A stretch of DNA of 28,528 nucleotides, from positions 1 to 28,528 of IMG/VR virus record IMGVR_UViG_3300025138_000249, one strand, 5' to 3'. The position numbers were made by a program, and so were the translations under genes. This stretch comes from a virus. The notes below the pieces were generated by a model. That model saw nothing but the letters and a program-made list of their open reading frames with translations, did not search any database and was not told the DNA's origin. Each line of letters starts with the position of its first letter. The stretch's first letter is position 1. This document shows positions 4,301-27,252 of the stretch, in pieces.

Positions 4301-7254
4301 TTGACAAAGTGAACAATGCTCATATAGCAAACCAACAAAGTCAATATAATGGAAACCCTGCAATAGTAAGTTTAAATCAAAATTCATATAATCCTGGGGA
4401 CTTCACAACTACTCAAGCACAAAATTCTGCTTTTAACTGTTTCTCTTTTGGAAATGGAGTCGAAGCAACTAGAATAAAAGGGCAATTTAATTCTGCATTT
4501 TTAATATATAGTCCAAGGGTTAGTACAAGTATAGAAGATTACAGGGAAGAACATTTAACAGCCAGTTTAACATATAGTGGTGTGTTTACAGAATATACTA
4601 ACGTTAATAATCTTAATGAATTTAATTTGTCACTGGCAAACTTTAAAGATGTAAATAAAGAATACGGACCCATTCAGAAATTATATTCTCGTGATACGGA
4701 TTTAGTTTTATTTCAGGAAGATAAAGTGTCTAGAGTTTTGTTTGGTAAAAACTTATTATCTGATTCTATAGGTGGAGGAAGTATAGCTTCTATACCACAA
4801 GTACTAGGGACTCAAATAACTTATACTGGAGAATATGGAATTAGTGAAAATCCAGAAAGTTTTGCTAGTTGGGGCAACAATATGTATTTTACAGACTCTA
4901 AAAGAGGAGCTGTATTGCAACTAGGGTTAAATGGCATTTTCGAGATATCTAATTTAGGAATGAACAACTATTTTAAGGATTTATTTAGAAGCAACTTAAA
5001 CACACAAAAGCTAGGGGCAATGGACCCGCATAAAGAACAGTATGTCTTATCTTCTAACACTACTCCAGCGCCACCATGCAACTTTTCTTTTTCTGCTAAT
5101 TTTGTTCCTCAAATAGGTAAAAACGGGTCTACAGAAACATTAGAAATAACATCTAGTAAAGCTTGGACCATAACAGCAATAGACACTGGGAGCGGAGTGA
5201 ATTGGATAACTATAAATGGTTCAAGTCCTTCCTATGGTAACTCAAGAAGTGAAATAGTTAATTTGGTTTTTCAAGCTAATTCAAGTACATCAAATAGATT
5301 TTTTCAGTTACAAATTGCTGGATGTGGATCATCAACGACTAATATAAACTTCACTCAGTCTGGACAAGGTAAGTTGACTACAGGGGTAATAGGGGTAGGA
5401 AATACAAATAAATCGGGTAGAGTAGCTATTTCTTCAAATGCAAATAGACAAACAGGAAGCTTGACTTATGACTTTACATCAAATACATCTGGTGCGTTTG
5501 CTTCAATTGATCAACAGATGCTAGATGATGACGAAGCTTTTATTTTTGGAAGTACCACTGGAACAGAAGGTTTTGGACGCAATCCATCCACAGGAGACGA
5601 TGTGACTTTAACAGCTTCTAGATTAGGAGCAGTTGACAGGGATGCTTTTGATCCATCATTAGGTACTAAAATGTACTACTTGCTTACCAATACTGAATAC
5701 TTACAAAGTCAAGTTGATGAAATAATAGCTAACCCTAGTACTGTTGAGCTAACCCCTGTATTAACAGGAAACAATTGGACTGGTACTATATCTAATTTTT
5801 CAAGATCAGGTTTTGACCACTTTTATACTTTAATAGATTACAGGGGAAAAATAACGGCTGGAGCAACATCTGAATTTGCAATTCCAATCCAAACTAATAC
5901 TGCTGCAGGAAATTCTACAACTAGGTTAGATTTTGGAGATAAAGAAGGTAGGATATCCTTGGCTTATACTCCGGTTTCTGGCACAGGAGCTACTGGAAAC
6001 ATATTTAATATTAGGTTAAACGGAACTATAGTTGTTTCTTCAGGTGCTACAGCTACAACTACTGCTGGAACGTTAGAATTTGTAAAAACAACAGAAACCG
6101 CTATTTACGATGCTGAGATAATACATTATGGAGAAGGTGAAAATATAACTGGAGAAGGTATTAATAAAATAGCTAAAATGGATATTACTAATCCTACTCT
6201 TACTGAATTTACTTATGAAAACTCTGCTTCATCACTGGTAACTACTGACGCTAACTATGTTTGTAGATCAGGGGCGTTGCCAAGTACTACTAAGTATCAT
6301 AACGGTTCTAATCCATTACCTGAATCAGGGGATATTTTATATGAGAATCCTAATGGAACAGTTAGAATAGGAGATGATGCATACCACAGATATGGAAGTA
6401 ACACCTCCCCTTCAACGCCAGCTGCTCCATTAAATTATTATCTAAGTGTTTTGGGGGATGGAACGGTAGATACAACAGATTTATGTGCAACTTGTGCTGA
6501 AACAGCAGTTCCTGTAATAACTTTACCTTCAACAATAAACATAAATCAAGGGACATTTAATTCTATAAATATTCAAACAACAAACGACCCTATATTTTAT
6601 AATGTTGTAGGAACTTGCAATGAGCTTCAAGTAACGGCTGGTGCAGATGGCGCAACTATAAGTTGGTCAGATTGTCAAAGTATATCTAGGTCTGCTTCTA
6701 TTCAACCAAATGACACTATAGTTATTGAAGTGACTGGAACTACTTATACAACTACATCTGGTACTACTACATTTATTAATTCAGGAACTAGTTCAGCTCA
6801 ATTTTTGCCCTCTGGTTTATTCTTTAATCAAGAAGAAGGGGTTATTAGTGGAACACCTATAGAAACAGGGACTTTTACACTGGTGTTTAATGCTCAAAAT
6901 TGTTTTGGAACTAGCTCCAATTCGACTATAACAATTAGCGTAACTGAAGAAGGTCAAAGAACGTTTGAAATGGATGGTTCTCAATTCACAACAAGCTCTA
7001 GTAGCGCATGTGGAATAGTGCCTGGACAATTAAACTCTACTTTATTTTACCATAGCGGATCTACTGTTTATCCAAAAGTAAATGACATTGTTACTGTGCC
7101 TACCCTCGGACAAGGCGGAACTGGAGAAACAAGTGTTTTTAGAGGAGGATACGTTTGGTATAAAGCACCTTGGGATATAGTAGGAACTGGTAACGGAACA
7201 GCTTTATTAATAGACGATAGAGGTGTAATAGTAGAAATATATACATGTCCTTAA
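1342..7254 (+). CDS. Giant tail hub/stabilization (muzzle-type) protein with BACON and He_PIG domains
   Basis: A 1970-aa tail protein. Its N-terminus (FTKGIMNKDLDERLIPPGVY, then RDGQNI and SVGSVQNMLGN) carries the conserved opening of phage stabilization proteins related to P22 gp10 and the crAss muzzle. Residues ~1126-1240 (DKVSRVLFG, GEYGISENPESF, DPHKEQYVLS) are the usual end of that core. Residues ~1250-1340 are a BACON domain, with W1275, W1288 (NWITING) and a closing NINFTQSG strand; the family is common in Bacteroidetes and thought to bind glycans. Residues ~1822-1868 are an Ig-like He_PIG domain (LPSGLFF, GVISGTP, TGTFTLVF). Two Cys-bounded, similar modules follow at 1641-1715 and 1890-1969, the second ending the protein. 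The gene overlaps its upstream neighbour as ATGA. A tail hub or nozzle with C-terminal carbohydrate-binding parts is likely; the receptor role is inference. Confidence 0.8.
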   Translation: MKLTRTFTKGIMNKDLDERLIPPGVYRDGQNIGVSTSENSSVGSVQNMLGNTQVGGDLSYLSSAAKTIGAIENPAAEEFYWFVKDTNFDYILRYNESANSTAIILKDTAGRVLKFDSEYVITGVNIIGDLLFWTDNLNPPRRVNILKYYAANAFTEDDISVIVKPPLSPPSLTLENTTGVLIPSTLKNEVNNISEKYVRFAYRWRYENNEYSSLSPFSSTAFSATDFSVNYSDGVFTSMQNGFNQVKVNIDTGGVQVTDVQLLYFDEFTGSVYVIETFDKKLNNWLSNSNLDVTFNNNKIYSILSADEVTRLFDNVPRKAQSQEIIGSRLVYGNYVQGYNIQDSTGDDIGIDFNLITASRRTTLSGSPSFKSDRDYEAGIVYLDDYGRMSTVLTPNISNPNGNNQSNTAYISPNNSDTINDLRVYINHRPPEFASKYRIYLKQSATNNYSTIFPTIFYRDGTDFYFRIERSEVNKIDLGSFIYMKQLNGIATNSNKQFKVQEVEVKEEGFLGNEEIEGLYFKISDTSGDISIDTYEGNWAAVGLAGTKLGGRHSLDRQYIIDQGTFNRGNVAFNGKMSAIGQIDLPVFYGTSLSNNNIELLAPTPSGKITAHDTSAKRDARIKITITANETFKVENFSNGIYELWYENIDLSLYYLSGTSYFINNPPSAVGVPTPTPAYDLQIYLRFNKGPGYVVNDYFIINVHSRFGLSNFGVSTAPTGSYSNAATNQFGSITGALSQGDAISVLTGGDTPLGNSFQILSNAPDDIPINANGNRIYPALDKRITAGAIIEMNITENLYDSGQVEKTKLSTNIFYSNSNYLNIEEWFYQEEIWKSFKHINCQDQSENRGERIFFRRVSQNYGDLNMSSNFPVDNTTSGSGDNQNIFLQALSSGPNGAPYLNNSGGWLSWAHLIAFDYPVAAFIRSSELKTQTASGSNQAGGEANVRVMELDCEFKIAQAVVGAPVFETKPSEIDNGIFYEMPYTFDIDKVNNAHIANQQSQYNGNPAIVSLNQNSYNPGDFTTTQAQNSAFNCFSFGNGVEATRIKGQFNSAFLIYSPRVSTSIEDYREEHLTASLTYSGVFTEYTNVNNLNEFNLSLANFKDVNKEYGPIQKLYSRDTDLVLFQEDKVSRVLFGKNLLSDSIGGGSIASIPQVLGTQITYTGEYGISENPESFASWGNNMYFTDSKRGAVLQLGLNGIFEISNLGMNNYFKDLFRSNLNTQKLGAMDPHKEQYVLSSNTTPAPPCNFSFSANFVPQIGKNGSTETLEITSSKAWTITAIDTGSGVNWITINGSSPSYGNSRSEIVNLVFQANSSTSNRFFQLQIAGCGSSTTNINFTQSGQGKLTTGVIGVGNTNKSGRVAISSNANRQTGSLTYDFTSNTSGAFASIDQQMLDDDEAFIFGSTTGTEGFGRNPSTGDDVTLTASRLGAVDRDAFDPSLGTKMYYLLTNTEYLQSQVDEIIANPSTVELTPVLTGNNWTGTISNFSRSGFDHFYTLIDYRGKITAGATSEFAIPIQTNTAAGNSTTRLDFGDKEGRISLAYTPVSGTGATGNIFNIRLNGTIVVSSGATATTTAGTLEFVKTTETAIYDAEIIHYGEGENITGEGINKIAKMDITNPTLTEFTYENSASSLVTTDANYVCRSGALPSTTKYHNGSNPLPESGDILYENPNGTVRIGDDAYHRYGSNTSPSTPAAPLNYYLSVLGDGTVDTTDLCATCAETAVPVITLPSTININQGTFNSINIQTTNDPIFYNVVGTCNELQVTAGADGATISWSDCQSISRSASIQPNDTIVIEVTGTTYTTTSGTTTFINSGTSSAQFLPSGLFFNQEEGVISGTPIETGTFTLVFNAQNCFGTSSNSTITISVTEEGQRTFEMDGSQFTTSSSSACGIVPGQLNSTLFYHSGSTVYPKVNDIVTVPTLGQGGTGETSVFRGGYVWYKAPWDIVGTGNGTALLIDDRGVIVEIYTCP

Positions 7255-17000: not shown

Positions 17001-18300
17001 GTCGATAGAAAAAATTATTTTAGAGTTAAATAGATTTGGAATAGTAAGCACTTTAGCCTTATCTGTAAAGAATATTCCAAAACAGGCTGTTTCTTTTATA
17101 AACTATTCTGTAGCTGGATATAAAGATGGTATTAATCCTGTTGATTGGGCCCTTGGATTTCCAAAAATGTTATCTACAAAAAATGGTAGAGAAATTGCAG
17201 TTAGAATATTACAAAGTCCTTATATTAAAGAAAGAATTGGAAAAACTCAAGTAGATCCTTTGTTAAGTAAAGCTATTGATGGGCTAGATAAAAATTCTAC
17301 ATACAATACAATTACAAGTACCTTACAAAAAATAGCTATGTCTCCAATAATAATGGGTGATGCTATTGGTGTAGTTAGTGGAGGTGTTCCTTTTGCTGTA
17401 GCTGTTCATAAGCAGAAAATGAGAGAAGGAATGAGTTTTGAAGATGCCTGGGACTACACTTATAAAAGGTTTGTTGAAGAATCTAATGAGTCTCAGCAGA
17501 CATCAGCTGACTATGCTTTAGGAAAAGTAGCTAGAAGTAAATTAGGTAAGTTATTTGTTACTTATAAAACAGCTCAGACTTCAGCTATGAATAAATTCTT
17601 AGGAGCTTATGAGGATGCTAGAGATTGGAAAAACTTAAATAATAACCAGAAAAAACAAACAATAGCTGATGCTATATTCTTTAGTGTAATATGGTCCATT
17701 CCTTTCTTGGCGGTTGGTAATGGAGCTGTAAACGCATTTATTAATGATGAAGGTGATGAAGTTAAAGAAAGAAAATCTGTAGAACTACTTTTAGACGCTA
17801 TAAATTCCAACTTGCAAGGGCTTGGTTTACCAGGCTTTGTTCTTAGTACAATTTACAATAAAATAACTGAAAAACCTGATTCTTTTAATGATGTATCTGT
17901 AGTTAATGTTTATGAAAATATTGGGAAAGCTTTAGGGTATGTTTTTGAAAATCTTTTTGAGAAAAAGAATCCATTTGATTTTGATAACTATACTAAGTCC
18001 GAAAAGAAAAATATAATAAAAGTTCTAGGATTTAAAAACGCTAATGATCTTTATAAAAACTTTAATGATGGTCAAAAGAGCGTTTATGACGCAATAATGA
18101 ATTATCAAGAAGGAAAAGTATATCCAAATAGACTAAGAGATTATATGTTAGGTGTGGACCCTGATGAAGAAAAGATAGTGACACCAATGAGAAGAGGTTA
18201 TAGAACTAGCAGAACTAGCAGAACTAGCAGAACTAGCAGAACTAGCAGAACTAACAGAACTAGCAGAACTAGCAGAACTAGCAGAACTAGCAGGAATTAA
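11089..18300 (+). CDS. Giant ejection/polyvalent-type protein with ADP-ribosyltransferase-like segment and RTS-repeat tail
   Basis: A 2403-aa protein, the largest gene here. The N-terminus has two copies of a ~30-residue unit (LYAKYAPDVDVDSKIEHI; FYRKYSPDTEVSSKLDYI), then a Glu-rich linker. Residues ~560-710 are Gly/Ala-rich and hydrophobic. Residues ~1185-1297 resemble the ADP-ribosyltransferase-like fold of phage polyvalent proteins: LTIYKGTGG, then GKFYSEDISTAEKY, then NGGRQTQIIIK. Lys/Glu coiled coils follow. The C-terminal third has features of large polyvalent/ejection proteins: SVKNIPKQAVSF near 1990, IIMGDAIGVVSGG near 2087, ESNESQQTSA near 2130, KLGKLFVTYKTA near 2152, and a hydrophobic segment at ~2190-2217. 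The last 33 residues are Arg-Thr-Ser repeats. It is in the gp16 position of the ejection set, but I see no lytic transglycosylase motif. An ejected protein with a possible host-acting domain is inference. Confidence 0.68.
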   Translation: MSDVNEDLIRNLYAKYAPDVDVDSKIEHIQTTYGDNQDSFVESFYRKYSPDTEVSSKLDYINSKYPVDEVKKKEETEEIEEEELVSDSQEEVTESTTEVGNESTSQASVLEEEVKTPSGTEVVVEEQIPGISGTSTPGIIKDPSMLPASEVEQEVFTESISEINKDSDLKNIQETTMRKVVGTDPQGEVMSVNKPGISNTEALSIQENKVTDFANLYIKADEDRFVDEEKVEDNINTSNLYKNKRKLEADIKNIDMEMRSLLQFSTGEKIIPVKVEELRGEDKTNYQNFKLQKESLSKELDKVTKEWSKTSNPLLESDDKSQKIYDPFTGQFILKINAPAPVIQYTDNVNAEARKISETTGEEELLKIRTDLYYDILNLSKQVKRNKKDVLEERTFLGSIVDEGTGLVNKAANFIGVEFDNPRDKNIELQLERFPDEKDNNFKGVIPQIMSEHPLAKQLNEKVRQFDAVNRAVELNKFPPVQDNESLIDISGVESGFVSTLFGEEYGKNPDISFGSGSNDFRVKVTQAQPLANVLKEKGFSGEAIDELQKASELTFGEEAQELTGNIGGMVLELYGTGGAVLKSTKIPKVLETFSVLSKKKYGTWAGLAADVLAGGATEGTKFGLTGVMLDKQEEYDPKLGIAFGVLSPLASVGSSLLSKLPAAKVVDDVLSASMPGYNTGKFVVGKGAEAAVGVNVIYGADLFDKIVFDGKQSGIAWDEVVYGKTPEDPEGVDPLRKASQLWGVMLATGLAQKNTYRKFHDALGKDILEARGRKIDWKWVKSQAPKPPEGEAYTENMLIESGIEAVNKNGTAADKSKLVDIMQDVSYNENLNAAKEQIQDVTNQRDKQEKQNSGLKKITKDVVKGEVEPTEVNLDAGEINSFISSTPAELKNISNSVKSQVKNNNITAAEGQDVINKVSEVLKNSSEIGVQNSKTKSVVIEKINELEGIKAEAEELDKLKFRDEATQKELNSLNERSNEIESELKTISETPETTSELLTDLATNKNRREKTLRDIKWQEDNVELVSEIEAKRRGGLNTNQALKELSKEYETKEVDEVETIKDSQIPLSKDIYTIRTEPGEGVRTVEVTVKKDGSRTVEQKVDGVTTAGSQNIPSTNTVSNMDFVSLSFGEVVGTPETLPMEKVMNSKMKDKLTKKQKQDLGISKEVSLEAAPEPVELEVLETDLTIYKGTGGKRNADGTIKTRHPDVEGKFYSEDISTAEKYKGEKEVISDIIPKGATIETVEIDGSKFSPGKAYDQAETDAINASKADVVKLITNDQNGGRQTQIIIKTKKDAVQKPSTKEVDVRQQAEDGGAVAKGDKVEVASEEVKEEAKEKAKEKIVETLEKDLAREEASEFKSEEVVKDLKEKLAGYKTQAPKKIKPTQKPKAKSKAKPKTELQELAQQLKRDSKVSERALDLNKETITKIDEILKDLEKEYKELGLPKQKYTPAQVRRIIKSSVDTKLTQDKIDEIIEGVNQILDPIIRKDNIRYLKNTLYSPKKLPKISVESRKKLKEIRDDLKVGDLKNKTTEELKALSEVVTEIITEGKASQDALQRLQNITRYKKQADVSKDLYKKEEFKEISTIEELDKFFNDNPNGFVLLNDTYEVTPGNYKSFLNDNPFLPIEGTKAYTSIDLKQVQRDYVRNPIRVLRGKINPANQIATIENLMKPLWRGAPKVREILEPVVKQIKNAYTNNQVARRKYTNMYNNYLADIFGSKKKGVKELSKTVDGLLNPTSKVVSKRGTTINNGQVGRYIAIQNLYKKRATQMREDAQELKGTAKDNLLNKADKFDKILERSGVNEKEFDKYIEANPKIKEFGDNLYKVFEEMAPDFAPTYEKATNMVFEEELYVPDNKAGKVDETGIVGATERLKTLDEGGDFITRSALSNRMKERTDNADPIDLYLDATNMFISYVRSMSHAKEMMPIAESINEVFNKPNIGAIYQKLGKAKFESLMEALDSQINLNADPVKSIEKIILELNRFGIVSTLALSVKNIPKQAVSFINYSVAGYKDGINPVDWALGFPKMLSTKNGREIAVRILQSPYIKERIGKTQVDPLLSKAIDGLDKNSTYNTITSTLQKIAMSPIIMGDAIGVVSGGVPFAVAVHKQKMREGMSFEDAWDYTYKRFVEESNESQQTSADYALGKVARSKLGKLFVTYKTAQTSAMNKFLGAYEDARDWKNLNNNQKKQTIADAIFFSVIWSIPFLAVGNGAVNAFINDEGDEVKERKSVELLLDAINSNLQGLGLPGFVLSTIYNKITEKPDSFNDVSVVNVYENIGKALGYVFENLFEKKNPFDFDNYTKSEKKNIIKVLGFKNANDLYKNFNDGQKSVYDAIMNYQEGKVYPNRLRDYMLGVDPDEEKIVTPMRRGYRTSRTSRTSRTSRTSRTNRTSRTSRTSRTSRN
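18202..18291 (+). repeat. 9-bp tandem repeat, 10 copies (AGAACTAGC)
   Basis: Ten head-to-tail copies of AGAACTAGC. Nine are identical; the sixth is AGAACTAAC. The unit is in frame with the 2403-aa gene and encodes Arg-Thr-Ser (Arg-Thr-Asn in the sixth), ending in Arg-Asn-stop. Copy-number changes would lengthen or shorten the basic tail without breaking the frame. The near-perfect identity points to recent expansion by slippage. Confidence 0.95.
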
Positions 18301-18683
18301 AAGTGACTTTCAGCGTGGCATCTAGAGCATAGCACCAAACATTTATCCATTTCTTCTTTAATTTTTTCTATAGACATTCCTCTGTGAACTCCGTTACTAA
18401 CTTCAAATGATTTATTGTCCTGGTGATGATGAAATTGTAGTGCTTGAGTTTTAAATGACTTATGAGTTCTTTTAGAGTATCCACAGCACGAGCACTCCAT
18501 GTTAGATTTTATATCTTTTAACCAATCCCTATTGAAATATCTTCGGTGTGCTTTAACACCCTCATAACAATCTTTACACTGCCTTCTTAAATACTTCTTT
18601 CCGTTCTTCACACCAGCAGAGTAGTAGTCTGTTGAGGGCTTTAGCTCCTTACATACCACACACTCTTTGTTGTTCACACTCAT
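18297..18683 (-). CDS. HNH endonuclease with N-terminal zinc ribbon
   Basis: A 128-aa protein with two zinc-binding parts. The N-terminal ribbon has C8, C11, C36 and C39. The HNH part has C64/C67, the FHHH triplet at 85-87 as the catalytic His region, and C119-x2-C122-H123, the usual zinc-bound form of HNH nucleases. This is a common small phage architecture, seen in free-standing homing-type nucleases and in packaging-associated HNH proteins. The gene is the last of the minus-strand block. Its stop overlaps the stop of the convergent 2403-aa gene inside TTAA, and its ATG overlaps the previous gene as ATGA. With no terminase nearby I favour a homing or DNA-processing role; the exact target is unknown. 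Confidence 0.82.
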   Translation of the reverse strand: MSVNNKECVVCKELKPSTDYYSAGVKNGKKYLRRQCKDCYEGVKAHRRYFNRDWLKDIKSNMECSCCGYSKRTHKSFKTQALQFHHHQDNKSFEVSNGVHRGMSIEKIKEEMDKCLVLCSRCHAESHF

Positions 18684-18862
18684 ACTTTAATGGATGAACC
18701 TACTTCTTTTAGCTTTATTATTAGAGAGTCTATTTTACATTGAGCAGTATAATACTCCTCATCAATTAAAGATTCATAGATGTCATCGGTTAGATCATTT
18801 ATTTCCTTCATGACAAAGTTGACATGATTTATTTTATGGAAATGAACGCCTAACTTTTTCAT
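18680..18862 (-). CDS. Small hypothetical protein (60 aa)
   Basis: I do not recognise this protein. It is 60 aa, His- and Lys-bearing at the start (KKLGVHFHKINHVNF), with an acidic helical middle (INDLTDDIYESLIDEEYY) and no Cys pair or membrane segment. The start at 18862 leaves a 2-bp gap after the upstream stop; a later in-frame ATG at residue 18 is possible. It overlaps the HNH start by ATGA, so it is translated as part of the operon. Confidence 0.55.
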   Translation of the reverse strand: MKKLGVHFHKINHVNFVMKEINDLTDDIYESLIDEEYYTAQCKIDSLIIKLKEVGSSIKV

Positions 18863-18864
18863 TC

Positions 18865-19056
18865 TTAAATCTTAACTAGAGAATTTACATCTACCTTAAA
18901 CATCTTTACATCTTTTTCTTTATCGTAAGAAACTAATGCATAATCAGGGGTAAGGTTCTTAATGTATATCCTTTTTCCTTCGTGAGTTAATCTTCTTTTC
19001 ATTAAGTCAAGGTCAATACCTTCTTCAAATGTAAACATATTTTTGTAATTATCCAT
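18865..19056 (-). CDS. Small hypothetical protein (63 aa)
   Basis: Not recognised. The 63-aa protein has a short acidic N-terminus, a basic helix (LMKRRLTHEGKRIYIKNL) and a C-terminal beta-like half (YALVSYDKEKDVKMFKVDV). Its ATG overlaps the stop of the helix-turn-helix gene by one base (TAATG), so it is probably co-translated. No function can be given. Confidence 0.58.
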   Translation of the reverse strand: MDNYKNMFTFEEGIDLDLMKRRLTHEGKRIYIKNLTPDYALVSYDKEKDVKMFKVDVNSLVKI

Positions 19057-19361
19057 TAATTTACTTTTAAATAAACATCAATTTCACTTTGAGATAAATC
19101 CTCCCACTTGTATTGAGGGTATGTTCCATACATATTTTCGTCTTCATTGTAAGCTTCTTCCTTACACCCTAAATGTATAGGAATAACTTTATCTTTTTGC
19201 AAGTCCCATTTTGTAAAATATTTTCTTACCACATTAACCGATAGGTCTAGCTTTTCAGCTATAGCTGGTATAGTAATCCCTGTCTGTGCTAGTAGTATTA
19301 TATGTTTTCTGTGGAATTCTGTAAGAAATTTTTTGCCTTTTCTCTTGTATACATACTTCAT
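19056..19361 (-). CDS. Small helix-turn-helix protein (101 aa)
   Basis: A 101-aa protein with a basic start (YKRKGKKF) and a clear helix-turn-helix at ~18-58: an activator helix (HRKHIILLAQTGITIPAIAEK), then LDLSVNVVRKYFTKWDL as the recognition helix. The fold is of the kind used by small phage regulators, resolvase-type HTH proteins and some small terminase subunits. The C-terminal half is acidic and aromatic (MYGTYPQYKWEDLSQ), perhaps for self-association. It sits among operon genes with ATGA overlap upstream and TAATG overlap downstream. A transcription regulator is the simplest reading; no target site is evident. Confidence 0.66.
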   Translation of the reverse strand: MKYVYKRKGKKFLTEFHRKHIILLAQTGITIPAIAEKLDLSVNVVRKYFTKWDLQKDKVIPIHLGCKEEAYNEDENMYGTYPQYKWEDLSQSEIDVYLKVN

Positions 19362-19666
19362 ATTATTTCTCTTATTCTCGTTTTCTCTAATGTAATCTTT
19401 CGGTTTTCTAAAATTAAATCCAAATATCTATCTGAATCTATCACCTTATAATCATCTACAATATAATCAAATTCTTTAGAATCACTTGCTTTTTCAAAAA
19501 AAATCTCCAAATAAAATACTTCTCCTCGTTTATTAAACACATGACCTAAGCTTAAGTCTGTGTCAATATTATTATTTACTCTTTCCATTACATATATTAT
19601 ATCATCCCAAGCTATGTGTGTTTCGTGGTCCGCTTCAATGTTATCAATAAACTCAAAGGTTATCAT
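19358..19666 (-). CDS. Hypothetical acidic protein (102 aa)
   Basis: Not recognised. I choose the ATG at 19666 (MITFEF...), 7 bases after the VRR-NUC stop. A longer version from 19714 (118 aa) would overlap VRR-NUC by 41 bases, more than any other pair in this operon. The protein is acidic, alternates beta and helix (HIAWDDIIYVMERVNNN, FYLEIFFEKAS), and has no Cys motif or membrane segment. Its end overlaps the HTH gene as ATGA. Confidence 0.55.
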   Translation of the reverse strand: MITFEFIDNIEADHETHIAWDDIIYVMERVNNNIDTDLSLGHVFNKRGEVFYLEIFFEKASDSKEFDYIVDDYKVIDSDRYLDLILENRKITLEKTRIREII

Positions 19667-19673
19667 TATATGC

Positions 19674-19922
19674 TTAGGATCCTTGGCCGTTGTATATTTC
19701 TGTATTGCATCCATGTTGTTCTAGTTCTTGTAAACGATATTCTTGTAGTCTTGACAACCTGCCCTTTGGAGTCTTCACTTCTGAAAATAAAACATCAGAC
19801 CCCGGTGGTATGGCTATCAAGTCAGGAATACCGTTCTTGTTAGTTTTTATTAATTTAATTACGTAGAAGCCCTGGCTTTCTAACTCTTTAATTCTCTTTG
19901 CTTGTATCTGTTGCTCTGTCAT
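19674..19922 (-). CDS. VRR-NUC domain nuclease (82 aa)
   Basis: An 82-aa minimal VRR-NUC nuclease (PD-(D/E)XK superfamily). Visible motifs: E3 in the first helix, G31-x-PDLIAI with catalytic D34, FSEVK with E48 and K50, and GRLSRLQ with Q60. The length is typical of stand-alone phage VRR-NUC proteins, which are known or proposed to cut structured DNA such as Holliday junctions. It lies in the replication/recombination operon between the DUF1599 gene and an unknown. The ATG overlaps a 5-codon ORF (19919-19936) as ATGA. Family call is strong; DNA substrate is inferred. Confidence 0.87.
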   Translation of the reverse strand: MTEQQIQAKRIKELESQGFYVIKLIKTNKNGIPDLIAIPPGSDVLFSEVKTPKGRLSRLQEYRLQELEQHGCNTEIYNGQGS

Positions 19923-19947
19923 TTACTTTTATTCATTTTATTTTATT

Positions 19948-20283
19948 TTATTTTTTCCACTTGTTACGACCAACTAAAAGTCCAATGATACCATAGTTAG
20001 CTATATCTATAAATGTATCTTCTTGACCTTCACCAGGAACATAATTCTTTCCGCTAATAACTAAGTTCTTTAACCTGCTTATTTTATCAGTTAGCCTTAT
20101 AGCTAGTCCAGTTAGCGAAAACTTTTTATCATTGTCATTATTGAGATCACCACCCAATGCGATGTTACTCAACCCATAATCCATTTGCTTTCTAGCAAAC
20201 AACTCATACATCTCTTGCTGTATGTTTTTAAACTCCTGAGATAACTCTGGATATTCTCTTTCAAATATTTCTATGTCTTTCAT
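19948..20283 (-). CDS. DUF1599 / nucleotide-modification-associated (Nmad1-type) protein
   Basis: A 111-aa all-helical protein with the DUF1599 pattern: a helix ending RKQMDYG with LSNIALGG after it, then GLAIRLTDKISRLKNL, then DTFIDIANYGIIGLLVGR. The family resembles MazG-like all-alpha nucleotide pyrophosphatases and has been linked to phage nucleotide modification. I see the Glu and Asp residues that would hold metal but cannot prove activity. Its leader is a perfect run of AAAAT units with no Shine-Dalgarno. A role in the nucleotide pool or in modified-base supply is inference; a C5 methyltransferase is encoded in the same block. Confidence 0.75.
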   Translation of the reverse strand: MKDIEIFEREYPELSQEFKNIQQEMYELFARKQMDYGLSNIALGGDLNNDNDKKFSLTGLAIRLTDKISRLKNLVISGKNYVPGEGQEDTFIDIANYGIIGLLVGRNKWKK

Positions 20284-20284
20284 T

Positions 20285-20449
20285 TTATTTTATTTTATTT
20301 TTATAACTTAAGTACGCTCCTTCAATATTAAATCCGCATCCACATTTTTCATGATCACCCTTAAAATAACTAACATACTCTTCCCTTGGTATACAGTACC
20401 AATTATTATTATAAGGATTGAAGTGGTATATTAAATTAAACTGTTCCAT
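20285..20449 (-). CDS. Small hypothetical protein with Cys-Gly-Cys motif (54 aa)
   Basis: An ORF of 54 codons. It fills the gap between the HNH and DUF1599 genes: its ATG lies inside the end of the HNH gene (19-bp overlap) and its stop is one base before the DUF1599 ATG. The product is aromatic and Asn-rich at the start (NPYNNNWYCIPREEY), with HEKCGCGFN in the middle; C19, C37, C39 and H34 could bind a metal. The tight fit into the operon supports a real gene. No family is recognised. Confidence 0.6.
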   Translation of the reverse strand: MEQFNLIYHFNPYNNNWYCIPREEYVSYFKGDHEKCGCGFNIEGAYLSYKNKIK

Positions 20450-20934
20450 CCTTTTTTTAGATTATCAATAGCCCATAAAGCCTGAAGGTTAGTATAATGA
20501 CATAACTCGTATGTTTCTTTTTCTGTATTAGCCAGAGCTAATGGTTTAATATGATCTATATGCCATTCTCCATAATTATCCCAACTCATTCCTTCTTTAA
20601 AATTATTACTAATATGAACTCTCACCTCGTTATATGAACATCCTAATATATCTGTAGTGTTACCTATCTTATTAACAATACTTTTTCTTATTCTACCCCT
20701 TAAATTTAGTTTCATCTTGTACAAAGGGTCGTTGTCTCTTCTGTTTTTTTCCCTTTTATTTATATCAGCTCTATGTTTCTTAGCGTAATCGGAATTGTAA
20801 GCAGAAATATGTTCTTTATTATTAAGTCTCCACTCTTTAATAGCTGACGTTTTAGCATCTCTATGCTTTTCCTTATTCCTTTCGTAATGCATACGCAAGT
20901 ACTCTTTCTGTTTTTCTTTGTCTTTATATGGCAT
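20431..20934 (-). CDS. HNH endonuclease, free-standing
   Basis: A 167-aa protein from ATG 20934; an ATG two codons earlier (20940) is also possible. The first ~75 residues are basic with repeated YxxxN/K-rich helices (KEKQKEYLRMHYERNKEKH) of the sort that bind DNA in phage HNH proteins. The C-terminal ~60 residues hold the catalytic ββα part: EWHIDHIKPLA (His127-Asp129-His130, numbered from 20940), CHYTNLQALW (N151) and N160 in DNLKKG. Such genes are frequent as homing-type insertions in phage genomes. It starts inside the end of the SF2 helicase gene. No intron is visible. Nuclease identity is firm; mobility is inference. Confidence 0.85.
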   Translation of the reverse strand: MPYKDKEKQKEYLRMHYERNKEKHRDAKTSAIKEWRLNNKEHISAYNSDYAKKHRADINKREKNRRDNDPLYKMKLNLRGRIRKSIVNKIGNTTDILGCSYNEVRVHISNNFKEGMSWDNYGEWHIDHIKPLALANTEKETYELCHYTNLQALWAIDNLKKGWNSLI

Positions 20935-22156
20935 AATCATTTTTAAAATGCTTTAGTGTGTAATCTTTTTTATTATTAACTGCTTGATATATCTTTTTTT
21001 CTATACCATTTTTAGAGAACACCCAATATATTTTATTATTCATTCTTTCTTTAGTAGTCATTCTATCTCTACTTTGCCAGTAACTAGTAGCACTAAAGTC
21101 TATATTGTAATATACTAAATACTTTGCCTCTTTCAAAGATATTCCTTCACGACCACTAACTATTTGTAGTGCAATATTTTTATCAGTAGTGTTAAACTCT
21201 TCTAACTCTGTAGTTAAATTATCTCCATAAATTTCTTTTAGTGCCTTTAACTCAGCTGTAAATTTGTAAAATATACCTATCTTTTTATCCTTAAATCTAT
21301 CTTTAATAAACCTAGCTTTACTATAATCTAACACTACACTTTTCTTTGATTCAAATATAACTGTCCCCGAAAATATCTGATGTAGTTTCTGCATTAACTT
21401 TACTCCAGTGTCACCAAGAACAACTTCGTCTGACCCTTGTAATATCTTATCTTTTTTTAATCTCTTGCATAGATCATAAGTTCTTTGCTCCATATCCACT
21501 TCTAATATTTCTTCATTAATAACAGACTTAAACCCTGCTTGTTGCTGAGTAAAGGAAATTGTATATGGCTTCATTACATCTATAACTTTATTATTATTAG
21601 CCTGAGAATAATCAGTAGCTACTTTATAACCATAATGTATTTGTCTTTTAACTACATAGTCATCAGACCATCTATAAAAGTTCTTATACTCACTAAAAGG
21701 ATTAGTCAGACACCCATAAACTTGGTGGTACATTTGAGAAAAACTTTCTGGAGTTGGTGTACCAGACATCAATATTAACTTAGACTTCCATGTTTTTAAG
21801 TCAGCTTTTAATCTCTTAGCCCTAGAAGATGGCTTTGGAAACGCACCTAACGAATGAGACTCATCAGCAATAATTATGTCAGGGTTAAAACCTAAGTTTA
21901 CCTTATGTGCGCTCTCATAATTAATAACCTGAAGTTCAAAAGAAGGACTCATCATTTTATAATCATCCTCAATACTAGATATAGCTTTCTTTTTTGTTAA
22001 GAATAAAACTCTTTCTGCTCCTAACTCCTCACATATACCTAATGAAGTAAGTGTTTTTCCGGTCCTTACCTCCATAGATAAATATAATAGGCCGTACTTT
22101 TCTAGTATCACTGATCCTTGACCAATGATTTTCTCCTGATAATCTCTAAATTTCAT
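20924..22156 (-). CDS. SF2 (SNF2/DEAD-like) DNA helicase
   Basis: A 410-aa helicase of superfamily 2. Motifs in order: Q-like RDYQ at 4-7, Walker A RTGKT at 31-35, DESH (motif II) at 98-101, SGTP (motif III) at 131-134, and QSRDR (motif VI) at 361-365 with arginine fingers. Motif V-like SGREGISL lies just before it. The length is that of compact phage SNF2-like helicases. It probably unwinds or remodels DNA during replication, recombination or transcription. It follows a 90-aa acidic gene by 3 bp and overlaps the HNH start. Family call is strong; precise role is not fixed by sequence. Confidence 0.9.
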   Translation of the reverse strand: MKFRDYQEKIIGQGSVILEKYGLLYLSMEVRTGKTLTSLGICEELGAERVLFLTKKKAISSIEDDYKMMSPSFELQVINYESAHKVNLGFNPDIIIADESHSLGAFPKPSSRAKRLKADLKTWKSKLILMSGTPTPESFSQMYHQVYGCLTNPFSEYKNFYRWSDDYVVKRQIHYGYKVATDYSQANNNKVIDVMKPYTISFTQQQAGFKSVINEEILEVDMEQRTYDLCKRLKKDKILQGSDEVVLGDTGVKLMQKLHQIFSGTVIFESKKSVVLDYSKARFIKDRFKDKKIGIFYKFTAELKALKEIYGDNLTTELEEFNTTDKNIALQIVSGREGISLKEAKYLVYYNIDFSATSYWQSRDRMTTKERMNNKIYWVFSKNGIEKKIYQAVNNKKDYTLKHFKNDYAI

Positions 22157-22159
22157 TCT

Positions 22160-22432
22160 CTATTTTCTGTTTCTCTTTTTATGTGCCTCCATTGTATATA
22201 ACAACTCTTGACATTTTTCGTATTCCTCGTACTCTTCAAAGTGATCTATCATTAGTAGGTAAACATCTTCATTATATTCAGGATAACCTTCTGAAGGATC
22301 AAATAAAAAAACCGGCATAACAGACATGTCATCTATGATTTCCTCAATATGTTTTTTGTGTGTTAGAACATTGTAACTGTTGATTATCATTTGATCTAAA
22401 TGTTTGTAAAAAATGTCTTCGTCTATGTCCAT
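22160..22432 (-). CDS. Hypothetical acidic protein (90 aa)
   Basis: Not recognised. The 90-aa product is strongly acidic and helical (MDIDEDIFYKHLDQMI, DHFEEYEEYEKCQELLY) with a basic end (AHKKRNRK). It lies between primase-helicase and SF2 helicase, overlapping the former by 10 bases and 3 bases from the latter. It might be a partner of one of them, but this rests on position only. Confidence 0.62.
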   Translation of the reverse strand: MDIDEDIFYKHLDQMIINSYNVLTHKKHIEEIIDDMSVMPVFLFDPSEGYPEYNEDVYLLMIDHFEEYEEYEKCQELLYTMEAHKKRNRK

Positions 22433-24795
22433 ATTGAGGTTTGTGTTATTGGTTCTTTAAATGTAAAATATACACCAGTGTTGTTCCTTCCTTGTTCAGC
22501 TTCAAATCCTGTTAAATGTTTACTGGCAATTCTCATCCACTTATTCCACTTGCTATGAGATAGTTTACTGTAATCAGGATTTTGTAAGACAAATTCTATT
22601 CTAACAGAGTTACTATTTATCTTGACATCAAAAGGAAAGAGCTCTTTGTTTTCTTGTATAAAGGTAACGAATTCTCTGCTAGTGGATGCTTCAAACTTTC
22701 TGTTCTTTAAATTCTTAAACGGTGCTGACACTAAACCTTCTCTAAGATATAACTGTAGACATTTTATCATATAGTTGTCAAAAGCACACCACTCATCATC
22801 ACTCCATTGTGAAAAGAATAATTTTTTAAACTCATCATGAGGTGTATAAACTTTAGAGTAATGAGCATAAAATTCTAACTCCCACTTTCTTCTTTCAAAA
22901 GAATTACCTGTTCCTCTTATGGCATAGTTAGTTGTAATAACAACCTTTGGAGATTTTTCAAATGGTATTTTTATAGCATCCTTGTTTTTCTTTTCTAATG
23001 TTATTCCTTCTGTAATTATACTAAACAATCTTTCAAACTCGAAACCTTTTTTTACATCATCAAACGTTAAAATCTGTGTGTCTACGGATACCAACTGATA
23101 TGCAAATGATCTTTCAAAGAAAAAAGATTTACCATCTATTGTTACATTCTTCTTTAGTTGAGATATTCCCTGGACAAATAGTCCCTTGCCTGTTCCTCCT
23201 TCAGGTTCCTCTGAATCATTCTCGTCATGTATTATTACTGCCGGACAATACCCTGCGTTCTTATGACCTTGTAATAAAAAACCTATCGTACTTTCAACTG
23301 ACTTAACTCTAGTTTCATTTTGATTACTTATGTTTGATATAAACTTTGAGTAGTCGCAATCAGTATCATCACAATATTCGAAGTCTCTAGATATAACCTG
23401 CTCTTTCCAAATAAAACCATCCAAAGAATCGTAATTTATTTTATGCAATTTGTCATTTGTAATTTTTAATGCTACATTTTTAAAGTATAAGTAAGACTCG
23501 TACTCTGTATTTTCAATGAAGTATATTTTTTTGTAAGAAAGTAAAGAAAGGAAGTCTTCCTTAAAGTATTTGGTTCTTTCTGCAAAGTGGTTATATATAG
23601 ATAGGTCTTCTAGTTCTAATAAATAATTTAAGACGTAATCTTTTATTAAGTCATCTGTAGTATTATCTATTATGTTAGACTTTATTACTATAAATATGTA
23701 GTTAGTGCTTCCTTCTGGCGTGTACTTATAAAACCCATGCTTTTCTAAAAACTCTTTAAACTTAAATGGTATTATGCTTACTACACCCTTTTCTGACTTA
23801 ACCCAAAACTCTGATCCCTCGCTACTTGTTTCTTCTTTTTTAATTACGGTATCTACAGAATCAGAATCATATCCTTTTGTTTTTAATAAAGTTCTTATTT
23901 CTTTTTTAGGTACACCAGTCTTTAGTTTTTTTCTAATTACATCTATTGTATCTGTGTCCTCAAAGAATCTAGTGTTAAAGTTAGATACATTTTGATATGC
24001 ACTATTGATAGTTGTTGTCATCTCATTGAATGAAAATCCATCAGTTACGTATTGACTTAATATAAACGAAGCCTGGCTTTTATCTATTCCAAAATCATTT
24101 AATGATGAAGCTAGTATATATATATTATTATTTCTTTGACCATCTATCATCCCATAATTATTCTCCCACCATTTTTTTAACCTATCTACTATCGTATCTT
24201 GACTAGTTAATACTAAGGTTGGTTCGTGACTCTTATAATCATGTTGCTCGTGATTTAAAACCTCTGTACTTGTATATATCTTACTATCCTTGTTTATATA
24301 TATTTTATTGTCATAACTTTCGTAACAAACTCTTGAAATATTTTTACAAGTAATATCAAATTCTTTACAGTTGTAATAGTCTTGTAGGGATAGAAAGTAT
24401 TTTATGTGGTTGTCGATCTCTTCAGGTACTCTTACCAGTACTTTAAGACCATTTCCACTAGGGGATATAAACACACTATGAGTGTGAACATCGTTTTTAA
24501 TCTCTTCTTTTTTATTTAGTAAATCTTTTTTAGATTCAAAGCCATCAAAATCTAAGCATATAATTCCACTATGTTTTAATATTGACTTATCTTTTCTGTC
24601 GCTAAACTCCCCACTAAAGCAAATAGCTGGTAGTTGTTGTTTTATTTTGTTTCTTAATTCTTTGTCTTTCTCTTTTCTTATTCTCTCTATTAGTTCCTTT
24701 GACTTACCTTCTCTAATTCTATCTAAAATAAAGTCTACATCTCTATAGAAAGGAACTGAAGTGTCTTTAACACTCTTGAATATTGTCACTTTCAT
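22423..24795 (-). CDS. Primase-helicase: VirE-N/BT4734-type N-terminus with SF3-like helicase
   Basis: A 790-aa replication protein. Residues ~1-180 match the BT4734-like/VirE N-terminal family, related to archaeo-eukaryotic primases: an acidic LDFDGF (D82, D84), SPSGNGLK at 111-118, and ISRVCYESYD at ~153-162. Residues ~205-270 look like a PriCT-type linker (WWENNYGMIDGQRNN...). The C-terminal part is a D5/SF3-like ATPase: Walker A EGGTGKG with K537, Walker B ILTFDDV with D579-D580, and a sensor KVVITTNYA, followed by an Arg pair (FERRKWELEF). It should unwind the fork and make primers. It is preceded by a 109-bp gap with a structured RNA candidate. The catalytic order is seen; priming activity is known of the fold and inferred here. 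Confidence 0.88.
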   Translation of the reverse strand: MKVTIFKSVKDTSVPFYRDVDFILDRIREGKSKELIERIRKEKDKELRNKIKQQLPAICFSGEFSDRKDKSILKHSGIICLDFDGFESKKDLLNKKEEIKNDVHTHSVFISPSGNGLKVLVRVPEEIDNHIKYFLSLQDYYNCKEFDITCKNISRVCYESYDNKIYINKDSKIYTSTEVLNHEQHDYKSHEPTLVLTSQDTIVDRLKKWWENNYGMIDGQRNNNIYILASSLNDFGIDKSQASFILSQYVTDGFSFNEMTTTINSAYQNVSNFNTRFFEDTDTIDVIRKKLKTGVPKKEIRTLLKTKGYDSDSVDTVIKKEETSSEGSEFWVKSEKGVVSIIPFKFKEFLEKHGFYKYTPEGSTNYIFIVIKSNIIDNTTDDLIKDYVLNYLLELEDLSIYNHFAERTKYFKEDFLSLLSYKKIYFIENTEYESYLYFKNVALKITNDKLHKINYDSLDGFIWKEQVISRDFEYCDDTDCDYSKFISNISNQNETRVKSVESTIGFLLQGHKNAGYCPAVIIHDENDSEEPEGGTGKGLFVQGISQLKKNVTIDGKSFFFERSFAYQLVSVDTQILTFDDVKKGFEFERLFSIITEGITLEKKNKDAIKIPFEKSPKVVITTNYAIRGTGNSFERRKWELEFYAHYSKVYTPHDEFKKLFFSQWSDDEWCAFDNYMIKCLQLYLREGLVSAPFKNLKNRKFEASTSREFVTFIQENKELFPFDVKINSNSVRIEFVLQNPDYSKLSHSKWNKWMRIASKHLTGFEAEQGRNNTGVYFTFKEPITQTSIWT

Positions 24796-24836
24796 TGGCT
24801 ATAATTTTTATACTCGTTAATAACATGGTAAATAAA

Positions 24837-24895
24837 GAGAGGTGTATGAACCACAACATTTATTGGCGCAGTCCTTACGGATACTGCCACCTCTC
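24837..24895 (-). ncRNA. Candidate structured RNA element (three-helix fold) upstream of primase-helicase
   Basis: In the gap between the SSB-like gene and primase-helicase. On the minus strand, an 8-bp perfect outer stem pairs GAGAGGTG (24895-24888) with CACCTCTC (24844-24837). Directly inside is a hairpin (24887-24868) of GCAG/CTGC and TCC/GGA with a 2-base bulge, closed by a GTAA tetraloop (GNRA type). A 4-bp GCCA/TGGU-type stem may form in the rest. The GNRA loop appears only on the minus strand, which is the transcribed sense. It is not a tRNA. A terminator is possible, since TTTATTT follows, but the enclosed span of 43 bases is unusual. I know no named family that fits. Confidence 0.5.
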
Positions 24896-24904
24896 AATAC
24901 TAAT

Positions 24905-25189
24905 TTAAAATGGTAAGTCGGCTGATGCAGTACTTGCTTTTGGCGCAGTATTCTCTTTCTCTGCCACAGCTATAGTGCCGTCAGTCCAAACAACTTTACC
25001 GTTGCCAACATAGTTTCTTTTTTTCCCAGCATCTTTCTCGTCTTTACTCATGCTTTCGTAAGTCCCTACGTTGTTTCCGTATTTACTTTCGTTATCTAAT
25101 ACGGTAGTTATCTGTAAAAATTTACCGTCTTTTAATCTTGACTTATCTACTTTAGTTAAATCAATGTAATGGTTTATTATTGAAGCCAT
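24905..25189 (-). CDS. Single-stranded-DNA-binding-like protein (94 aa)
   Basis: The start is ATG 25189 (MASIINHYIDL...); an upstream in-frame ATG would run far into the exonuclease gene. The leader is A-rich (AAAAACAAAAACAAAT). The 94-aa product has KSRLKDGKFLQITTVLD, YVGNGKVVW, and a Thr/Ala-rich linker ending in ADLPF, like the acidic Asp-x-Pro-Phe tail of bacterial SSB. It follows a RecE-like exonuclease and annealing protein and precedes primase-helicase, the place for an SSB. I do not see a clear OB-fold signature, so ssDNA binding is inferred from tail and context. Confidence 0.6.
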   Translation of the reverse strand: MASIINHYIDLTKVDKSRLKDGKFLQITTVLDNESKYGNNVGTYESMSKDEKDAGKKRNYVGNGKVVWTDGTIAVAEKENTAPKASTASADLPF

Positions 25190-25211
25190 ATTTGTTTTTG
25201 TTTTTATTGGT

Positions 25212-25955
25212 TTATAATTGTTCTGTATGATAATATTGATTGATATCTTCTGGAGCTCCTTCAACAAAGAACTTTTCGTAAATCTCAATCGCTTTGAATA
25301 CTTTTTGTTTTCCGTATTCGAGAAATGTTTCTGAACAGTGAAATATCCCTGTCTTATATGTATTCTTTTCTACTACTATAAATATCATTGGCCTTCCAAA
25401 GAACTGACTATATATCCAAGCTTGACTATCATAGTTGTACTTTCTTGCTGAGTATTTAAACTCATCTATCTTTGATGTAGTCTTTAAATCAATAATCATA
25501 TCCGATGCAACAATATCTGCTTTCCCTTTCCATAGATGACCTCCTATTTCTTTAATAGCTGGAACCTCAAACTGATTCCCTGCTTTGTAAATCATATCAT
25601 AGAAATCTAAGTTCATTCTTATTGCTTTAGCCATATTAGATAACATCTCTACTTCTTTAGTTAGTATAGCTTGTTTGCCTAATTCCTTGTAAGCTTTAGT
25701 AGTTCTAGTTGAGGCATCCACGATATCAAACTCACTAAGTTTTTGAGGTTCCAATAGTTCAGTATGAAAATATCTTCCAAGTAGCATAGCTATTGTTGGT
25801 TTACCCTTCCCTCTAAAATCTTTTGGATTGTTTAAGAGTGATCCTATGTCTGAGTTAGATAAAAAGTTTCTGCCAAAATCTCCATAGTAATACTTGTCCT
25901 CTCTTAGCTTCTCTATTTCTTTTGTGTACTTTTGATTAATTTCATCTAGTATCAT
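25212..25955 (-). CDS. RecE-like PD-(D/E)XK exonuclease
   Basis: A 247-aa protein of the exodeoxyribonuclease VIII-like group (PDDEXK_12 type). Motifs: H64 in GRYFHTELLEP, E134-E137 region (VPAIKE), GKADIV with D147, IDLKTT with D156 and K158, and YDSQAWIYS with Q178 and Y182, the usual order for lambda Exo/RecE-like 5'-3' exonucleases. It overlaps the annealing protein gene as ATGA, giving the classic nuclease plus annealase pair for end resection and strand annealing. No truncation is evident. Confidence 0.87.
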   Translation of the reverse strand: MILDEINQKYTKEIEKLREDKYYYGDFGRNFLSNSDIGSLLNNPKDFRGKGKPTIAMLLGRYFHTELLEPQKLSEFDIVDASTRTTKAYKELGKQAILTKEVEMLSNMAKAIRMNLDFYDMIYKAGNQFEVPAIKEIGGHLWKGKADIVASDMIIDLKTTSKIDEFKYSARKYNYDSQAWIYSQFFGRPMIFIVVEKNTYKTGIFHCSETFLEYGKQKVFKAIEIYEKFFVEGAPEDINQYYHTEQL

Positions 25956-26545
25956 GACTTTATAAATTTAGATAGTTCATCAACTACTACTGGATTAATC
26001 TTATATTTCTGAGATAGTATTTTAATGATACCTGGCATCCCTAGTTCTTTGTTGTCAATCATCCAAGCAATTACCTTTTGCCAGTTGTCATCTTCAATCT
26101 CTAAATTAATTAGCTTAGGTTTTTTTATTACTGGTGCAGTTTCAACTAAGTCTTCTCCAGCATATACAGATAAACCTAGTCCATGTAAGGCCAATGCTTT
26201 TACAGTTGATCTTTGTATAGATGAGTTTACTTCAAAGCTAGTAATGTTATCTAGTTGTATAGACTTTGGCCTACCCGATGTATTCATTATAGGTAAGTAA
26301 TCTATATACTCTAGTTCATCAATGGTTACTCCTACTTTTACCCAAGCCGTTTTGCCATCAGTAAAATAGTTCATGCCATTTTCAGATTCATATACTTTTC
26401 TTGTTAATTCTGGATATAACTTCTTTGCAAAAGCCCATGCATGAGCCCAACTTAGATATGTTAATTGTCCCTTTTTCTCTACTTTATCAGAAACGTTGAC
26501 AGCCGAAAGCTTATCAAACGCTGACTTTTTCGTTTGTGTTGCCAT
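25952..26545 (-). CDS. Single-strand annealing protein, DUF1071 (Sak3-like)
   Basis: A 197-aa protein with the DUF1071 signature: FDKLSAVNVSDKVEKKGQL, then TYLSWAHAWAFAKKLYPE at 29-46, TAWVKVGVTID, YLPIMN, and the closing block SIQRSTVKALALHGLGLSVY with GEDL at 109-133. DUF1071 proteins are Rad52-like phage annealing proteins (Sak3 group). A C-terminal ~60-residue helical extension follows. It should anneal ssDNA made by the neighbouring exonuclease. The leader is A/T-rich (AATTAAATAAAATAATG). Confidence 0.87.
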   Translation of the reverse strand: MATQTKKSAFDKLSAVNVSDKVEKKGQLTYLSWAHAWAFAKKLYPELTRKVYESENGMNYFTDGKTAWVKVGVTIDELEYIDYLPIMNTSGRPKSIQLDNITSFEVNSSIQRSTVKALALHGLGLSVYAGEDLVETAPVIKKPKLINLEIEDDNWQKVIAWMIDNKELGMPGIIKILSQKYKINPVVVDELSKFIKS

Positions 26546-26565
26546 TATTTTATTTAATTTAATTA

Positions 26566-26943
26566 TTATTTACTCTTTGGGTTCCAGTTTTTTATGTATT
26601 TAGCAAGGTCTGGATCCTTCTTTATTTTCTTCTCAGTTTCTTTAATTCCATATATTATCGTAGAGTTAGTAGTTTCAAAGCCATCTGCTTTCATACATCT
26701 AACTATTGCTGATAATCTATAGCCATTAAGTTTTGCTAGGTAGTATATTAAGTATCTTGCCGATGTGACATGATTATCTTTAGTCTTATTAAATAATTCA
26801 TTTTTATGTGTTCTTGTAGTCGTACATACATCATAAACTATTTCATCAAAAATTTCGTAATTTAACATCATTGTATTGTATTTTATTTGATTTTCTGTAG
26901 GTGGGTAATTTACCTCTGCCCACATATCTTTCGTTCTCGTCAT
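26566..26943 (-). CDS. DnaA domain IV-like DNA-binding protein (125 aa)
   Basis: A 125-aa protein whose residues ~35-112 resemble the C-terminal DNA-binding domain of DnaA: HVTSARYLIYYLAKLNGYRL (compare 'aR.ia.yl'), SAIVRCMKADG, then a TTNSTIIYGIKETEKKI block in place of DnaA 'rdHtTV..a..ki'. The AAA+ ATPase part is absent; the protein is too short to hold one. It lies first behind the promoter-like site at 26961-26991, ahead of recombination and priming genes. It could mark the phage origin or regulate the operon. The helix pattern is clear; origin binding is inference, and no repeated box is obvious nearby. Confidence 0.76.
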   Translation of the reverse strand: MTRTKDMWAEVNYPPTENQIKYNTMMLNYEIFDEIVYDVCTTTRTHKNELFNKTKDNHVTSARYLIYYLAKLNGYRLSAIVRCMKADGFETTNSTIIYGIKETEKKIKKDPDLAKYIKNWNPKSK

Positions 26944-26960
26944 GTTGTTTAATAATTATT

Positions 26961-26991
26961 CAAAACTAATACAATTTTACTTTAATCCAAA
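26961..26991 (-). promoter_or_regulatory. Bacteroidetes-type promoter
   Basis: On the minus strand, TTTG at 26991-26988, a 19-base spacer, then TAGTTTTG at 26968-26961. This matches TTTG-N19-TAnnTTTG, the primary sigma-factor form of Bacteroidetes, at both boxes. It spans the end of the 91-aa gene and the gap before the DnaA-like gene. A transcript would start near 26955 and reach the ATG at 26943. It would drive the recombination-replication genes. No operator-like dyad is evident. Confidence 0.68.
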
Positions 26992-27252
26992 TATTTTTCT
27001 GATATTTTCTCCCAAAGTATAATTATTAGGTAGTTTCTCGGTTAGTTTCTCTATTTCATTAATAAGTTGTAATGATCCTACTGCCATTTGCTTTTCAGAT
27101 TGAGTACCATAATTAAGTTTTTTATGGCCTTCTTCTATAATCTCTGTTATCTTTTCTTTAACTTTAGAGGTTTGGTTGTTTTTTTCATATGAATTATCAT
27201 ACCCAAATGTTTTATTTTGCCTTAGTTCGTTAAGTGTTCTTTTTTTTTGCAT
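26977..27252 (-). CDS. Hypothetical protein (91 aa)
   Basis: Not recognised. The 91-aa product is charged and helical, with a basic, Asn-rich start (QKKRTLNELRQNK), then KVKEKITEIIEEGHKKLNYG, and LQLINEIEKLTEKLPNNY. No Cys pair, enzyme motif or membrane segment is visible. It lies upstream of the DnaA-like gene, and the -33 part of that gene's promoter falls in its 3' end. An 84-bp gap precedes it, so it may have its own leader. Confidence 0.6.
   Translation of the reverse strand: MQKKRTLNELRQNKTFGYDNSYEKNNQTSKVKEKITEIIEEGHKKLNYGTQSEKQMAVGSLQLINEIEKLTEKLPNNYTLGENIRKIFGLK

Follow-up and report, generated by a model that had tools for sequence, protein, structure and literature searches.

The gap between an SSB-like gene and a primase-helicase gene on the minus strand of our window (the whole stretch of viral DNA that was analysed, a 28.5-kb virus record) holds a real RNA structure at positions 24837-24895. 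We interpret this element, with moderate confidence, as a leaky intrinsic (Rho-independent) terminator or attenuator that bears a c4-2-like apical domain and closes the recombination/SSB gene cluster at its 3′ end. The element is a modest variation on known parts and not a new RNA class. Among the roles offered in the original prediction, that of an odd terminator fits best, and cis-regulation of the primase is possible only as attenuation.

Genomic setting and architecture of the element

The plus-strand genes of the window include matches to Crassvirus muzzle protein domains, and a minus-strand block encodes replication and recombination functions, namely a Sak-type annealing protein, an exonuclease, a small SSB-like protein, and the primase-helicase. 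Upstream of the annealing protein, a small protein (26566-26943, minus strand) has a weak match to the DnaA C-terminal domain (E 4e-4, under the curated cut-off). The gene directly upstream of the element (24905-25189, minus strand; start codon approximate) was recognised as an ORF whose product ends in the acidic tip ADLPF. This protein had no Pfam or PHROG match, and "SSB-like" is used here as a putative label, given by its acidic tip and position only. Downstream lies the primase-helicase (22423-24795, minus strand; ORF and domain match) with a BT4734-like N domain. The intervening gap of 109 nt is, as had been claimed, the largest within the minus-strand block 18297-27252; a larger gap of 333 nt is found farther upstream. 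The element begins 9 nt past the SSB stop and ends 41 nt short of the primase ATG, which agrees with the spacing originally described.

In the minus-strand RNA, three stems form a three-way junction that is followed by UUUAUUU. P1 is a continuous 8-bp stem, evident from sequence, fold, and stem scan, in which the 5′ arm GAGAGGUG (24888-24895) pairs with the 3′ arm CACCUCUC (24837-24844). P2 (GCAGUAUCCGUAAGGACUGC, 24868-24887) is predicted to fold into a 7-bp hairpin with a 2-nt bulge and a GUAA tetraloop, and matches P2 of c4-2 RNA in our core-model alignment (see below). P3 (24850-24867) consists of the 4-bp arms GCCA (24867-24864) and UGGU (24853-24850) around the 10-nt loop AUAAAUGUUG, and has an equivalent in the relative L003. 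The P3/P1 junction UCAUA (24845-24849) occupies the place of AGGA in c4-2, and the U-rich tract UUUAUUU (24830-24836) provides a terminator-type tail. All three stems of the original prediction are thus present where they had been placed, and a scan for tRNA and tmRNA found none. The claim that the structure forms on the minus strand only was partly borne out: P1 and P2 fold on the plus strand too, and only the GNRA loop and the U-run set the minus strand apart (gap fold energies of -20.5 kcal/mol on the plus strand vs. -25.0 kcal/mol on the minus strand). A 30-codon hydrophobic minus-strand ORF (MLWFIHLSLFTMLL...), read by eye, starts within the P3 loop at ~24859 and extends over the start of the primase gene; no ATG corresponds to it in L003, so it is probably a chance ORF.

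The element folds at -21.7 kcal/mol (z -3.4; 1 of 200 shuffles as stable), and the whole gap is less striking (z -1.9). Searching the window for perfect 8-bp stems that contain five or more GC pairs and enclose no more than 60 nt returned P1 (5 GC pairs) as the sole instance, and U occupies 6 of the 8 bases after the stem. A P1-type stem with a U-rich tail arose in 1 of 2000 shuffles of the gap. With regard to the interior, P2 and P3 together are not unusually stable, given that 333 of 2000 shuffled interiors reached an energy as low. The exact interior layout appeared in 4 of 2000 shuffled interiors for the window and in 0 of 2000 for L003, and with the GNRA loop included it appeared in 0 of 2000 for both.

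Conservation of the structure

The primase of L003 is 72% identical to that of the window, and the same junction precedes it: P1, P2 with a 2-nt bulge and a GNRA loop (GCGA), P3 with a 10-nt loop, and a CAU-containing junction. The UA bulge of P2 is also kept. By hand count, 6 of the 19 pairs changed on both sides yet remained paired, 12 were unchanged, and 1 was broken (A-G in P2), although two sequences are too few for a covariation statistic. The both-sided changes fall in P1, P2, and P3, which supports a selected structured RNA. Judged from these sequences, the structure is partly conserved: the interiors of four other close relatives (L004, L005, L086, and L087) differ from that of the window, and a pattern scan for more orthologues of the junction after SSB recovered known ones and simple hairpins only.

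It is possible, albeit unlikely, that the element is a plain intrinsic terminator whose branched interior is neutral and whose likeness to c4-2 is coincidental. This would be consistent with an interior no more stable than shuffles, with interiors that are simple loops in some relatives and branched in others (as is also seen in the unrelated L287 group), and with a detailed branched head that is common to the window and L003 only; it fits poorly with the retention of layout, UA bulge, and GNRA loop in L003 despite both-sided changes, with the rarity of the layout in shuffles (0-4 of 2000), and with the independent score of a c4-2 core model reported below.

Hairpins were also observed near primase genes elsewhere. 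The hairpin that immediately precedes the primase in L287 (3940-3990, minus strand), from an unrelated phage group, shows a c4-like core that lacks the inner loop. In L309-L319 of this group, the hairpin ahead of the primase match varies between simple loops and three-way junctions, even among relatives as close as 92%. At the same place, relatives of the L287 primase carry branched and simple hairpins, among which no further c4-like core was seen. In many distant relatives of the window's primase (L010, L020, L022, L023, L026-L028, L033, L034, L036, L040-L043, and others), the region ~100-150 nt ahead of the primase match holds, just before the gene, a T-rich tract, a CTGATAATCAG-type block, and direct repeats in two or three copies (of types such as TCGACATAAA, TCAACACAAA, or GTCACAAA). 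These features are possible replication origins or initiator sites.

A probable terminator at the 3′ end of the SSB-like gene

Relatives were gathered separately for the primase and for the SSB-like gene, and 80 viral relatives of the latter were kept. A hairpin followed by a U-run was found after the SSB-like stop in 50 of 60 relatives, each matched by at most 1 of 20 shuffles. The same arrangement follows the SSB-like gene in many relatives with a non-primase next gene (next genes judged from sequence). Primases that have no SSB-like gene in front (e.g., L006, L165, and L167) lack the element and have a different upstream region. Since the hairpin tracks the SSB-like stop whatever the next gene, the element belongs to the 3′ end of SSB, and its presence after SSB in relatives supports an intrinsic terminator with read-through. 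Both the GC-rich stem with its U-rich run on the transcribed strand and the shared position after the gene are as expected of intrinsic terminators.

The five closest relatives (L003, L004, L005, L086, and L087) keep the G-rich/C-rich stem and the U-rich tail, and their interiors vary. The tail reads UUUAUUUUUU in L003, UUUUUUAUUU in L004 and L005, UUUUAUUU in L086, and UUUUUU in L087. In all five, only about 14-18 nt separate the end of the stem from the primase ATG, and the U-rich tract is thus part of the translation start region too. This proximity would suit a post-transcriptional intercistronic RNA, i.e., a processing or stability hairpin, or a structure by the primase ribosome entry site, that acts without termination; we consider such a role very improbable, given that the hairpin follows SSB even when the next gene is unrelated and is missing before primases without SSB.

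Several points speak against the terminator reading. The U-run of the window is interrupted (UUUAUUU), the branched loop of 43 nt far exceeds that of ordinary intrinsic terminators, a standard terminator scan (loop of 3-8 nt) did not call the element, and in detail L003 alone has the same branched head. No promoter is recognised behind the element, and complete termination there would silence the primase; leakiness must therefore be assumed. In L003 and L087, where the stem ends ~14 nt from the primase ATG, there is no room for a promoter, and the primase seems to depend on read-through.

From the sequence, the predicted fold, the position, and the comparative pattern, we infer termination at this site, an efficiency that would be partial, and perhaps an extra role for the branched head. 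The GC-rich P1 and the U-run would form the terminator, with the three-way-junction domain (P2 with its GNRA loop, and P3) in place of the usual short loop. This branched domain would fold first and bring the P1 arms together. Through termination, the Sak-exonuclease-SSB transcript would gain a stable 3′ end, transcription past the element would yield primase-helicase, and the element may thereby set the ratio of the two.

Likeness to c4-2 RNA

An Rfam scan of the window over all families at curated cut-offs gave no match. Below the cut-offs, c4-2 (RF02944, clan CL00128; curated gathering score of 41 bits) matched the element at 32.2 bits (E 2.4e-5; 201 nt, all families); the single-family E-value in the record of the window was 8e-7, or ~0.003 if multiplied by 4227 families. 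The Rfam 15 paper names the c4-2 family in a table only. We built a c4-2 core model from twelve true c4-2 RNAs (ten from searched genomes and two from viral contigs), leaving the window out; 98.3% of cells in the alignment are paired, and seven pairs show both-sided changes. With this model, the window reached 26.7 bits (E 0.0012 for the 253 kb searched), and the next match that had not been chosen beforehand reached 12.3. Its top match was L287 (39.6), which had been found earlier by a core pattern and is therefore not independent. L003 reached 8.4 bits only, and neither L003 nor L004, L005, L086, or L087 had an Rfam c4-2 match.

The element shares with c4-2 RNA a three-way junction with a GGUG/CACC base, a P2 with a 2-nt 5′ bulge (UA) and a GNRA loop, a 4-bp P3 with a 9-10-nt loop, a U-rich 3′ tail, an intergenic position, and an occurrence in Bacteroidota-linked elements. 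In contrast to c4-2, the window lacks the UAU/CUAA inner loop of P1, the AGGA junction (UCAUA instead), and two-sided target copies. The element falls outside the c4-2 family, having a sub-threshold score, neither inner loop nor AGGA, no significant flanking target, and a counterpart in L003 that reaches just 8.4 bits. The original description of the RNA as undescribed holds only in part, as its core resembles Rfam c4-2 and its position is that of the usual terminator after the SSB gene.

A search for RF02944 in ~300 genomes from each of two phyla found it in 8 of 296 genomes of the Bacteroidota set (centred on a Cytophagales MAG), seven of them above the cut-off with 3-6 copies, and returned two weak matches in 299 genomes of the other phylum. 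In L269-L280, true c4-2 RNAs (Bacteroidota) are located at ~1501-1580 of each sequence within repeated cassettes, in the order promoter-like TATATTTG, target copy, short leader ORF, c4-2, U-run, second target copy, and a 77-79-aa ORF that is conserved and has a FYWLNELAEILDPYL-like end. The loop and the targets co-vary between copies. By analogy, these cassettes may represent a C4/CI-like antisense system, for which joint change of loop and target would be expected. The viral contig L284 carries a c4-2 RNA (~6990-7085, minus strand; 66 bits) with target copies to either side; a 99-aa ORF and an anti-repressor gene come next, which makes the arrangement C4/ant-like.

Possible antisense pairing

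C4 and CI RNA share a two-part layout of complementarity with their targets (PMC5320573, PMC4825925). C4 represses ant in phage P1, and CI RNA the replication operon of phage P4. On this model, the element could give rise to a c4-clan antisense small RNA that represses its target, possibly the primase-helicase start, by pairing the P3 loop and the P3/P1 junction with two separate parts of it. As positive controls, nine true c4-2 loci were put through the two-part test: in eight, a bipartite site complementary to the P3 loop and junction was present on each side of the RNA (at most 3 of 300 shuffles), and the viral c4-2 of L284 gave the same result. In the window, the best two-part site was the primase start (-14.4 kcal/mol), where the junction UUCAU would pair with AUGAA and the loop AAUGUUGU with ACAAUAUU. 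The sub-threshold Rfam and core-model scores, the shared layout, the occurrence of c4-2 in Bacteroidota and viral contigs, and the order of the proposed target (b-spacer-a, as in real c4-2 targets) are in line with such a role. Nonetheless, the pairing does not stand out from chance: 82-89 of 1000 shuffles attained it, as did 11% of the gene starts of other phages. Upstream of the element there was no significant antisense target, L003 had no target in the same two-part test, and a plain search of the window for duplexes with the P3 loop and junction ranked the primase start only within the best 16% of minus-strand windows. Taken with the missing inner loop and AGGA, these results leave the antisense reading of the element unsupported, and we regard it as improbable.

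Pairing of the RNA with many start codons of its own phage was also considered (p 2e-6 at first against other AUGs) and was rejected, as phages without the RNA pair nearly as well (means of -4.8 to -11.4; window -9.1). No start-codon pairing of the element beyond chance was found.

Significance and comparison with known systems

If the branched head is functional, the c4 group of phage RNAs would reach replication control in phages with crAss-like structural genes, and the element would offer a concrete switch between recombination and priming functions. To our knowledge, no such RNA switch is known in the lineage with crAss-like structural genes. If the head has no function, the terminator position linked to SSB would tolerate large structured inserts that can be mistaken for new RNA classes.

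The element has the GC-rich stem, the U-run right past the stop, and the gene position of intrinsic terminators after phage SSB-like genes, but differs from them in its 43-nt loop that holds two further hairpins, vs. 3-8 nt. With the C4 antisense RNA of phages P1/P7 (RF01695) and the CI RNA of phage P4, it shares three stems and a variable loop; unlike C4 RNA, the window has no reported RF01695 match and no significant complementary target. P4 CI RNA controls replication genes through premature termination (PMC4825925), and the gene that follows our element is a primase-helicase. By analogy with this system, a stripped-down c4-clan RNA fused with a terminator might control the primase-helicase in a phage with crAss-like structural genes, a prospect that we consider rather doubtful.
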